Below, one piece after another: positions 25,675 to 30,825 of a stretch of 30,825 nucleotides of DNA; within the stretch, counting starts at the first letter, position 1; each line of letters opens with the position of its first letter. This stretch comes from a virus, in IMG/VR virus record IMGVR_UViG_3300047562_000211, positions 1 to 30,825 of that record. One strand, given 5' to 3'. Under the pieces are notes generated by a model, which was not told the DNA's origin, did not search any database, and saw only the letters and a list, made by a program, of their open reading frames with translations. The translations under genes were made by a program, and so were the position numbers.

Positions 25675-26052
25675 TCAGAACTCCGCTGCGTCTGCTGTGG
25701 CTTCGTTATCAGCTACTTCGATAACCTTGACGGCCTCTAGGTAGGTAGACACACCGTGTACTGGGTGTTGTGGCCCCAGCTTGTACTTCAGGCGCACCTT
25801 AGAGTTGTAAGGCACCTCACCAGACCACTCCTCACCGTCAGCATCAAAGGCTTTTACGTCGAAACGTGACTTGAACTTGCGCTGCTTTGCGCCGTTATAA
25901 TCCTTGATCTTGACGCCTTTTGCTGCTAACTGGTTGGCATCTTCGTCGGACAGTGTTACGGTCATGCTGAAGGCACCCGTAGACTGACCCATGTACTCGT
26001 CGTGCTTAGTGATGTTGCTGAAGTTTACTGTACCTTCGATTACGTCAAACAT
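25675..26052 (-). CDS. ssb: Single-stranded DNA binding protein (gp2.5-like)
   Basis: 125 aa. MFDVIEGTVNFSNITKHDEY, then FSMTVTLSDEDANQLAAKGV and KQRKFKSRFDV resemble phage OB-fold SSBs. The C-terminus (EVADNEATADAAEF) is acidic with a terminal Phe, as in T7 gp2.5, where it binds polymerase and helicase. It precedes the helicase by two bases. The open frame extends 40 codons further to 26172, but a TTGACA-17-TATACT promoter lies inside that extension. AGGGAAG lies 7 bases before the ATG at 26052, so I use this start. Confidence 0.88.
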   Translation of the reverse strand: MFDVIEGTVNFSNITKHDEYMGQSTGAFSMTVTLSDEDANQLAAKGVKIKDYNGAKQRKFKSRFDVKAFDADGEEWSGEVPYNSKVRLKYKLGPQHPVHGVSTYLEAVKVIEVADNEATADAAEF

Positions 26053-26115
26053 AGGTTCGCTTCCCTGTTTAGTTACATTGGTTGGTTTAGATTGGCTTTT
26101 GCCAGTCTTACTAAT

Positions 26116-26144
26116 AGTATACTCCTCTTTTATCTTTTTGTCAA
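26116..26144 (-). promoter_or_regulatory. Sigma70 promoter for replication genes
   Basis: On the minus strand TTGACA (26144-26139) and TATACT (26121-26116) are 17 bases apart. The predicted start is near 26109, leaving about 57 bases of leader before the SSB ATG at 26052. A small TGGC-AAAA-GCCA hairpin lies in that leader. It would give the SSB-helicase-polymerase block its own promoter. Confidence 0.82.
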
Positions 26145-26164
26145 GTGTTAAATCCTCTAGATCC

Positions 26165-26374
26165 TCAAACATCTTCTATCACATCCCTACTTAGTACGTC
26201 ATCTGCAGCCTTACGTAGCCACTTAGCTAACGCTTCCCTAGACTCTGCAGATACTGATACGGCGTCCTCTGTCCACCCTACGCTGTCACTGTCAAACTTG
26301 TACACCTCCACTAGCTCGTACAGATCCTCCCCGGCAAAGTCTTTGGTCTTACGTGCAGCATAGTGCCATGTCAT
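26165..26374 (-). CDS. Hypothetical protein (69 aa)
   Basis: MTWHYAARKTKDFAGEDLYE, then VYKFDSDSVGWTEDAVSVSA and a helical end (ALAKWLRKAADDVLSRDVIE). It has an alpha/beta pattern like small phage proteins with a strand-strand-helix fold, but no known family. ATGA overlap with the upstream gene. It is the last gene before the SSB promoter. Confidence 0.75.
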   Translation of the reverse strand: MTWHYAARKTKDFAGEDLYELVEVYKFDSDSVGWTEDAVSVSAESREALAKWLRKAADDVLSRDVIEDV

Positions 26375-26830: not shown

Positions 26831-26877
26831 ATGTAGCCTCATGTAGTTTTAGGTTAGCCTTAGAAGTAACTTCACAT

Positions 26878-26964
26878 GTACTAATGTAGTACTACAGTAG
26901 ATTACTCCTTTACTTACCTACTTAGTAATACTTGTTTAGTTACTTCATTAGTTACTACTGTAGT
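26878..26964 (-). ncRNA. Structured leader A sharing a 20-nt element with leader B
   Basis: Reading the minus strand from the predicted start near 26961, ACTACAGTAG (26964-26955) is perfectly complementary to CTACTGTAGT (26900-26891). Inside, ATTACT (26929-26924) pairs with AGTAAT (26906-26901) and holds AAGTAAAGG near its 3' side. The element AAGTAAAGGAGTAATCTACT (26915-26896) recurs with one mismatch at 30471-30490. A second hairpin, GTACTA-CAT-TAGTAC (26892-26878), overlaps the closing stem and could be an alternative fold. No reading frame follows the internal AAAGGAG. It may act by controlling readthrough or translation of the gene at 26830; function unknown. Confidence 0.55.
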
Positions 26965-28362: not shown

Positions 28363-29007
28363 TTACCCCTTTGCAATGATATTTGATTGTTGTTTAACCA
28401 TAGACTTACCATGTCCGATATAGGTGACTACTGCGGTATCCTTGTCCCAGCATGAGCGACACGGGCCACATTTGCCTTCCCGAGTGTACGCCTCACAGAC
28501 TACACTACCCTCTGGTACTGTGTCAAGTGTCGCAATGGTGCTAGTGGTAGCCCCTGCTATTGTCTCACCTGTGACGCTATCGGATGACAAGCGTACTACT
28601 ACATTCTCTAAAGACTGCATTTCATGTATCACTGGCATGAATTTGTAGAATTTGTACATTCTAGTGGGAAGCCAGTGTTTAACCCATGGCGTAGCTTTCA
28701 TAACCTCTAGAATCTTACGTGCTAACCGAATATCGTACATGTCACCAGAGTCAAACCACCGGAAGTATCGCTCTGTGTCTAACTCCTGTACCATCTCGGT
28801 AACCCATGACTCACGCTTCCAGTCATCCCGATTGTGCTCCCTAGGTGCTCTCACGTTCTTAAACCTATAGTTACCCGTAGTAGCATAGCATCCTTTACAG
28901 GCATCCACTAGCTCGCCTGTGGTAGTTCTAGATGCTGGACATGTATCGAGCGCCTGCAGTGACCATGATTTGCAGGGCATTTTAGACGCTTTAGATAGTT
29001 TTATCAT
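28363..29007 (-). CDS. GP88-like Cys-rich phage protein
   Basis: 214 aa. It opens MIKLSKASKMPCKSWSLQAL with CPAS, then CKGCYA, and has FRWFDSGDMYDIRLARKILE and WLPTRMYKFYKF, with a C-terminal CGPCRSCW. This is the pattern of the phage 'gene product 88' family (the mycobacteriophage gp88 type). Its function is not established as far as I know. The conserved Cys clusters suggest an Fe-S or zinc site, and the R-W-x-DSGD and TR segments look catalytic. The W-I-x-TR end pattern recalls radical-SAM-related phage proteins, but no CxxxCxxC motif is seen. Confidence 0.78.
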   Translation of the reverse strand: MIKLSKASKMPCKSWSLQALDTCPASRTTTGELVDACKGCYATTGNYRFKNVRAPREHNRDDWKRESWVTEMVQELDTERYFRWFDSGDMYDIRLARKILEVMKATPWVKHWLPTRMYKFYKFMPVIHEMQSLENVVVRLSSDSVTGETIAGATTSTIATLDTVPEGSVVCEAYTREGKCGPCRSCWDKDTAVVTYIGHGKSMVKQQSNIIAKG

Positions 29008-29841: not shown

Positions 29842-29994
29842 AACGCAATCTCATGGTGTCTCAAGTGGCCTCAATGGGTGCTACTTAAGCACACACATGT
29901 CAACATTTAAATCATGGTATTATTACCTATTGACTTCACATGTTATCTATGGTTGCGCCTCTGGTTGTTACCATAGTTGCCTTGTGTTGTCAAG

Positions 29995-30003
29995 TGTGAA
30001 TAA
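29995..30003 (+). promoter_or_regulatory. DnaA-box match (TGTGAATAA)
   Basis: The reverse complement is TTATTCACA, which fits the bacterial consensus TTATNCACA exactly. A one-mismatch relative (TGTGAATTA) lies at 29806-29814 in the same orientation. Confidence 0.55.
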
Positions 30004-30051
30004 TACCAATGTTTTCCCTTGACAGCTCATGGCTTCCTGTGTTAAACTTGT

Positions 30052-30290: not shown

Positions 30291-30319
30291 TTGACTTTTA
30301 TAAAAAAGTATGATATAAT
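30291..30319 (+). promoter_or_regulatory. Rightward sigma70 promoter for terminase transcript
   Basis: TTGACT (30291-30296) and TATAAT (30314-30319), spacing 17. TGATATAAT around the -10 is shared with the promoter of leader A. The predicted start near 30326 coincides with the first base of the 11-bp closing stem of leader B. Confidence 0.86.
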
Positions 30320-30325
30320 AGAAGG

Positions 30326-30521
30326 TAGTTACTTAGGCAATAAAGTAGACACCAAAGGGTAGGCTCCTAAGGTGTAACGCCTGATCAAACTAATCGATCA
30401 TCCTGATCCCCTCCAAGGGGTCACCTAAGTAGAATTACTTACTGACTTACTAGTACTTCTCATGAGAAGGAAGTAAAGGAGTAACCTACTTAGCTACTGA
30501 TTAGGACCTACTAAGTAACTA
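30326..30521 (+). ncRNA. Structured leader B before the terminase gene
   Basis: TAGTTACTTAG (30326-30336) is perfectly complementary to CTAAGTAACTA (30511-30521), closing a leader of about 196 bases. Inside are a bulged hairpin at 30404-30423 (TGA-CCCCT/AGGGG-TCA), and an 8-bp stem CTAAGTAG (30425-30432)/CTACTTAG (30486-30493). That stem is extended by TTACT (30435-30439)/AGTAA (30480-30484) and capped by CTTCT-CATG-AGAAG (30456-30469). AAGTAAAGGAGTAACCTACT (30471-30490) is shared with leader A. The terminase ATG lies 41 bases after the closing stem. It may be a cis-regulatory RNA, a stable small RNA or a packaging signal. Confidence 0.6.
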
Positions 30522-30562
30522 GGGGTGACGGGTGACAACATATGACTACATAAGGGCTAAAC

Positions 30563-30825
30563 ATGACCGAAGGTGTACCTAAGAAAGGGAGGCCTACAAA
30601 GACTAGTGTAGCTACTGCACGTAAGACAGGTAAGGTAGGTAGGCCTAAAGGCACAGCAGCTATCATCAACGAGTACAGAGATCGTATGCTGGCTAGTCCT
30701 AAGTCACGTAAGGTACTAGAGTCTATCTTTGATGCTGCCTTAGACCCTGAGCATAAGAATCAAGCAGCAGCATGGAAGTTAGTAATGGACAGGGTAGCTC
30801 CTGTAGCAGCCTTTGAGCAAGAGAT
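30563..30825 (+). CDS. Putative small terminase subunit (5' part)
   Basis: At least 87 aa, running off the window end. The N-terminus holds two AT-hook-like Gly-Arg-Pro cores (KKGRPTK and VGRPKG), suited to minor-groove DNA binding. KSRKVLESIFDAALDPEHKN then AAAWKLVMDRVAPVAAFE resembles the helical DNA-binding part of small terminase-like proteins in marine podoviruses. It would recognise phage DNA and hand it to the large terminase, expected just beyond the window. AAGGG lies 6 bases before the ATG. It is the first gene behind the rightward promoter and leader B. Start and strand are certain; the function is moderately so. Confidence 0.68.
   Translation, partial: MTEGVPKKGRPTKTSVATARKTGKVGRPKGTAAIINEYRDRMLASPKSRKVLESIFDAALDPEHKNQAAAWKLVMDRVAPVAAFEQE

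Follow-up and report, generated by a model that had tools for sequence, protein, structure and literature searches.

A conserved pseudoknotted leader RNA, a candidate translational regulator of the late operon in marine podovirus-like phages

Introduction

Phages without an RNA polymerase of their own need other means of timing their late genes, and the locus described here raises the question of whether a structured leader RNA could be one of them. A conserved, knotted leader found in numerous marine podovirus contigs, where it directly precedes the virion operon, would offer a compact and testable answer. The window, i.e. the whole stretch of DNA that was analyzed, is the complete IMG/VR record IMGVR_UViG_3300047562_000211 (30,825 bases) and can be considered a podovirus-like genome fragment. 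Replication genes (primase/helicase, DNA polymerase, Cas4-type exonuclease, endonuclease VII and ribonucleotide reductase) occupy its minus-strand half, and virion genes its plus-strand half. It is only distantly related to named phages, with a DNA polymerase that shares at most 48% identity with its counterparts in Pelagibacter phages. A search for a T7-type RNA polymerase in the window and in related records of 34-40 kb, which may be incomplete, found none; the HTVC019P control was detected. Because no phage RNA polymerase was found, the host enzyme presumably reads the late operon. A first-pass annotation of the DNA had described the leader as a closed multi-branch structure of regulatory type, belonging to no known RNA family, and had proposed that it times the packaging genes, acts as an attenuator, is processed into a small RNA or serves as a packaging signal.

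Results

Promoter and first gene of the late operon

The leader, which like all its parts described below lies on the plus strand, is preceded by a strong promoter, as had been annotated. This sigma-70 promoter consists of TTGACT and TATAAT separated by 17 bp, with a TG before the -10 hexamer (extended -10), and occupies nucleotides 30291-30319. The same promoter is found before every complete homologous leader; these copies have the strong promoter on their 5′ side and, on their 3′ side, the gene for the same small basic protein with which the late operon opens. The contig ends within this gene, the 5′ part of which encompasses nucleotides 30563-30823. The product includes two GRP motifs and, in the related locus L083, is a 133-amino acid protein with an alpha-helical core; there the gene is followed by those for an endolysin, two small proteins, TerL and the portal protein. 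No family match was obtained in PHROGs, Pfam, NCBIfam, the PDB or a fold search, the best fold matches, from a low-confidence model, being DUF5681 and uncharacterised phage proteins, and the family libraries revealed no similarity to single-stranded DNA-binding proteins (SSB). The gene had been named a terminase gene; no family library recognises it as such, and it is kept here as a candidate for the terminase small subunit (TerS), a fair guess by position only.

Structure and folding energy of the leader in the window

The stems that had been read from the sequence are all present. The closing stem, P1, is a perfect 11-bp pairing of nucleotides 30326-30336 with 30511-30521 that joins the predicted transcription start to a point 41 nt upstream of the ATG (30563). 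It encloses a hairpin at 30349-30375 with the 5-bp stem ACACC/GGUGU (30349-30353/30371-30375) and an invariant UAGGC loop; the 8-bp stem P2 (30380-30387/30498-30505); and the 8-bp stem P3 (30425-30432/30486-30493), with a pair probability of 0.68. The sequence UAACGCCU, at 30375-30382, occupies invariant columns in the alignment of the closest relatives. The 14-base palindrome hairpin CTTCTCATGAGAAG at 30456-30469 corresponds to a gap in the homologues and is thus not conserved.

Energy comparisons gave a divided answer. The segment 30326-30521 has a minimum free energy (MFE) of -58.3 kcal/mol as compared with -45.4 ± 4.5 for its shuffled versions (z -2.89; none of 200 as good), but the whole leader, 30324-30562, does not surpass its shuffles, of which 46 in 200 fold as well (z -0.72), and P1, with a mean pair probability of 0.22, is missing from its MFE structure. 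Since the folding energy depends on the boundaries chosen, the comparison with relatives decides.

The nested fold is also incomplete. Its stems recur in relatives, but it omits a conserved pseudoknot that reaches beyond the closing stem toward the ribosome-binding region. The 5′ strand of the pseudoknot, Y (UCAUCC-UGAU-CCCC, 30398-30411), pairs with strand Z (GGGG-UGAC-GGGUGA, 30522-30535), which adjoins the 3′ end of P1; the value for the Y-Z duplex is -16.5. In the window P1 and Y-Z cross, and nested folding cannot display the pseudoknot. Duplex prediction indicates that Y can also form a competing local hairpin, UGAUCCC/GGGGUCA, at 30404-30423. Z is followed by a linker of near-constant length (30536-30562) that includes the Shine-Dalgarno sequence AAGGG.

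A further potential pairing was observed in the window, L004 and L187, between GUAGUU at the 5′ end and a GACUAC that lies just ahead of the Shine-Dalgarno sequence (30325-30331 with 30543-30549), the L004 version extending to 8 bp (CTGTAGTT/GACTACAG). This may offer the 5′ end an alternative partner, and the pairing would touch the ribosome-binding site.

Clade A, the subgroup of the window

Related loci were collected by protein searches with the downstream gene, taking 80 loci per query, and their leaders were then grouped. Among named phages there was no match to the leader in a direct DNA search or to the first gene in a protein search. The subgroup that includes the window, clade A, has five distinct leaders (window/L083, L084, L086, L004/L088 and L187). 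Its architecture comprises P1, P2, the hairpin with the UAGGC loop followed by the invariant octamer, a long P3 arm, and Y-Z. The stems recur with changed sequences. That of the UAGGC hairpin is CUACAG/CUGUAG in L084 and L187 and ACUAAG/CUUAGU in L004, and P2 is found in four lineages as CCTGATCA/TGATTAGG, CCTAGTC/GATTAGG, CCTTTAG/CTAAAGG (L004) and CCTTAACA/TGTTAAGG (L187). Against shuffled 3′ regions, the combined Fisher p values were 0.002 for P1, 2.5e-5 for P2 and 1.9e-4 for Y-Z. The Z strand varies little across the five leaders; RNAalifold nevertheless selected Y-Z when run on the clade A alignment alone, with no clade B input. A search with a spaced UAGGC pattern recovered the clade A leaders together with unrelated chance matches that had no promoter.

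Clade B and covariation

The sister subgroup, clade B, was defined with a 17-base pattern that retrieved 111 stretches, of which 80 were kept; the subgroup numbers 59 distinct leaders plus one outlier. A sigma-70 promoter of the same type was found in all 76 matches with upstream sequence, and a homologue of the same gene came next in all 67 stretches with a readable ORF. Z followed its strict expression in 69 of the 80 stretches, and the other 11 have CGAAA in place of CGAAC. The helices of clade B are arranged in the order a, b, c, a', b', c' and cross one another: P0 (CAGAU/AUCUG), an 8-bp P1, and the Y-Z pseudoknot GUUCGUAU-AGAU-CCCC / GGGG-ACUC-AUGCGAAC. The most compact form of this knotted core, of the L299 type, is 80 nt long and includes an invariant AGA/CUC internal loop. 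A conserved leader peptide was looked for in clade B and not found.

Strands were anchored by their position relative to the promoter, Y and Z, and not by complementarity, because MAFFT misplaced the short forms. The 3′ strand of P1 was taken as the 8 nt ending 3 or 4 nt before Z, with L107 and L471 placed by hand; the 26-pair rows used for covariation were assembled by joining helix strands and are not native alignments. Across L107, L471 and 16 distinct cores from clade B, double changes occurred at 14 of the 26 pairs. They amounted to 42 double-change cells as compared with 11.1 after shuffling (0 of 500 shuffles reached that number), and 95.3% of the cells pair as opposed to at most 53% in slid registers. 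Covariation in homologues, which had been named beforehand as a test of the structure, is therefore clear in clade B, and it is strong for P1. On the leader tree, one P1 pair co-changed 8 times (p < 2e-4), the last pseudoknot pair 4 times from C-G to U-A (p 2e-4), and P0 twice (p 0.001); the co-changes in P0, P1 and the pseudoknot all stay paired. Most Y strands were set by the search pattern, so that the case for the pseudoknot depends on this C/U-G/A pair together with L471 and L107, two leaders that came from protein searches rather than from the RNA pattern and that show further compensatory changes. The L471 pseudoknot reads UUCACUU-AGAU-CCUC / GAGG-ACUC-AAGUGAA. The cells of P0 and P1 include 32 G-U as opposed to 4 A-C, an excess indicating that the functional strand is the transcript, i.e. 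the plus-strand RNA.

Clades A and B agree in promoter, position and spacing to the start codon and have a AGAUCCCC/GGGG core in common. There is no detectable sequence homology between their leaders (the clade B HMM did not detect clade A), and clade A has no P0, that portion of the 5′ end being occupied by P1. From this shared layout we infer that the two clades are of common descent. The comparative evidence from both clades bears out a structured RNA of regulatory type behind the promoter, and we consider it very probable that the leader is a functional structured RNA acting in cis.

Spacing to the start codon

Z ends 25-29 nt short of the start codon in clade B, 27 nt in the majority of leaders (24 in L471), and 26-28 nt short of it in clade A. 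The distance from promoter to Z is 66-124 nt in clade B and about 168-201 nt in clade A. Taking both subgroups together, 24-29 nt separate the pseudoknot from the start codon, and 66-201 nt separate it from the promoter. A near-fixed distance on one side and a free one on the other are expected of translation control and are not required by antitermination or by a free RNA, although the constant spacing is partly owed to shared descent. The clade B linkers consist of 46% A and have an unpaired probability of 0.59, as compared with 0.38 elsewhere in the leader; they include GUUAAACACAAGGA, and a UUAAA/UAAA stretch is common in them and less clear in clade A.

A group of loci, L198-L242, forms a sister clade that retains the same gene but has only a very short leader behind a similar promoter, and it can be considered a natural deletion control. 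For this reason the leader RNA appears to be a lineage-specific regulatory addition and not an essential packaging signal.

Strand exchange

In computed folds of the clade B leaders, the CCC of Y is paired locally in 58 of 59 cases as long as Z has yet to be transcribed; once Z is present, its partner is Z in 54 of 59. Together with the local hairpin available to Y in the window, these predictions suggest that the leader is a two-state RNA.

Discussion

Proposed role of the leader

The best-supported role of the leader, to which we give a probability of about 50%, is that of a cis-acting translational regulator in the 5′ leader of the phage late operon; that its main action is on the initiation of translation is an even bet. 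The knotted leader probably helps to set the timing or the strength of translation of the virion-building genes. Starting at the strong sigma-70 promoter, the host RNA polymerase would transcribe the leader, and the RNA would fold during synthesis, with Y moving from its local hairpin to Z. The completed pseudoknot would then adjoin the landing site of the 30S subunit, separated from it by the short A-rich linker, and a protein or ligand that binds one of the two states could set translation of the late operon. Candidate binders include the basic product of the first gene itself, the gp2.5-like SSB of the phage, or a host factor. A fuller proposal, which we put forward tentatively, is that a bistable, multiply pseudoknotted leader RNA of a new family governs the late switch in marine podoviruses without their own RNA polymerase, by moving one strand from a local hairpin to a pseudoknot next to the ribosome, the trigger being a phage protein or a signal of the state of infection. 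The naturally occurring compensatory variants CCCC/GGGG, CCCU/AGGG and CCUC/GAGG are ready-made controls for such a model, and the 80-nt compact form is small enough for structural study.

Relation to known RNAs

We rate the pseudoknotted leader as a new family. The absence of a known RNA family, as had been annotated, agrees with Rfam 15, which gave no match at the gathering thresholds for the window and 12 related loci and only chance-level matches in permissive searches; we found no published description of this leader RNA in the open-access literature. By analogy, its closest precedent is the operator of T4 gene 32, a pseudoknot of about 28 nt that nucleates protein binding along a less structured stretch including UUAAA/UAAA and the ribosome-binding site (PMC535899). 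In both cases a pseudoknot in a phage leader lies upstream of the ribosome-binding site and start codon; the less structured stretch that follows it in T4 has a probable counterpart in the clade B linkers, where the element noted above is common, and a less clear one in clade A. The T4 operator, however, governs its own SSB, and the RNA described here precedes a late gene that does not code for an SSB, with a binder that is only a candidate; it is also 80-215 nt long, has crossing helices and begins at +1. Since the controlled gene is not an SSB gene, the leader is not a member of that class. A leader pseudoknot is also found in the mRNA of the E. coli toxin TisB, where it acts on ribosome loading at a single-stranded standby region that precedes a sequestered ribosome-binding site by about 100 nt (PMC7708055). 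The manA and wcaG motifs are structured 5′-UTR candidates of marine cyanophages found by comparison (PMC2864571); they are associated with metabolic genes of T4-like phages, and their Rfam models do not match this leader.

Alternative explanations

The leader could instead be an mRNA stability element, in which a stem or pseudoknot closes off the 5′ end, starting at its first nucleotides, and slows the decay that depends on that end (RppH, RNase E or J), giving a lasting late mRNA. The closing stem begins at the predicted +1, a second strong promoter in the window likewise has a start-anchored stem, the mean z of 50 leaders is -2.46, and in 30 representative leaders of the first gene the 5′ end pairs downstream above shuffles (Fisher p 7e-6), although individually only 7 of the 30 are significant. 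A plain hairpin would suffice for this purpose, however, and both the Y-Z pseudoknot and the near-fixed distance to the start codon would be left unexplained. We consider this explanation unlikely.

Decidedly improbable, in our opinion, is processive antitermination, in which the nascent leader would bind the host RNA polymerase to permit read-through of the long late operon. The closest rival precedent, again by analogy, is the put RNA of HK022, which binds the zinc-binding domain of the RNA polymerase beta' subunit and suppresses termination. Both are promoter-proximal structured RNAs of phages read by the host RNA polymerase, presumably in our case given the failure to find a phage enzyme; the leader begins at +1 and no intrinsic terminator was found on the plus strand between 30326 and 30562. 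The putRNA is about 70 nt long and has two stem-loops, with no pseudoknot reported (PMC9378689), unlike the three crossing helices of clade B and the crossing of P1 with Y-Z in the window, and antitermination has no need of a constant distance to the start codon. The lack of a terminator also speaks against the attenuator that had been proposed.

A ligand-sensing riboswitch or a new self-cleaving ribozyme might be suggested by the compact 80-nt core with its three crossing helices and invariant internal-loop bases, and by the exchange between local and long-range pairing. The a-b-c-c'-a'-b' topology of the compact core resembles that of HDV-like ribozymes. This possibility is nonetheless slight: no Rfam ribozyme or riboswitch matches, and the element occurs only before one late gene, not before metabolic genes. 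An HDV-like ribozyme in particular was rejected, as few nucleotides separate the 3′ strands of P0 and P1 in clade B (one U in the L299 type) and a J4/2 of HDV type with its catalytic C would not fit.

A trans-acting role, as a packaging RNA or a processed small RNA, is highly improbable. A location at the very start of the late (packaging) operon would agree with it, and phi29 pRNA is a closed structure to which the leader may be likened. Neither a terminator nor a separate 3′ end is visible in the sequence, however, the conserved pairing reaches almost to the Shine-Dalgarno region, and the sister clade has the same gene without this structured RNA. The small RNA and the packaging signal that had been proposed are thus unsupported, in view of the near-fixed distance to the start codon and of the short-leader sister clade. 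Chance complementarity in a repeat-rich intergenic region with many CTAAG/CTTAG words, which the ordinary energy of the whole leader and the non-conserved palindrome might suggest, is scarcely credible, and for clade B it is ruled out by compensatory changes far in excess of the shuffled and slid controls.

Other features of the window and its relatives

A second structured leader was observed on the minus strand at 26843-26961, behind a perfect sigma-70 promoter (26996-26968). It has a start-anchored stem, ACTACAGTAG/CTACTGTAGT, in place of which L003 and L004 have AACTTAAGT/ACTTAAGTT; its folding energy is ordinary (z -0.73), and it shares with the late leader the 20-nt stretch AAGTAAAGGAGTAAYCTACT. 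The gp2.5-like single-stranded DNA-binding protein, a candidate RNA-binding regulator, is encoded on the minus strand at 25675-26172 (PHROG 112, E 1e-5). Also on the minus strand, nucleotides 28363-29007 encode a conserved protein matching phrog_1392 (E 7.5e-29), with no function assigned. An imperfect inverted repeat (39 nt, 74%, with a 16-nt spacer) lies between the divergent operons at 29915-30008. Other marine phages, L108, L144, L094 and L150, have unrelated-looking, very stable leaders before the same gene (z down to -10), frequently made of CTTAAG repeats, and the whole phage group seems to favour structured late leaders.
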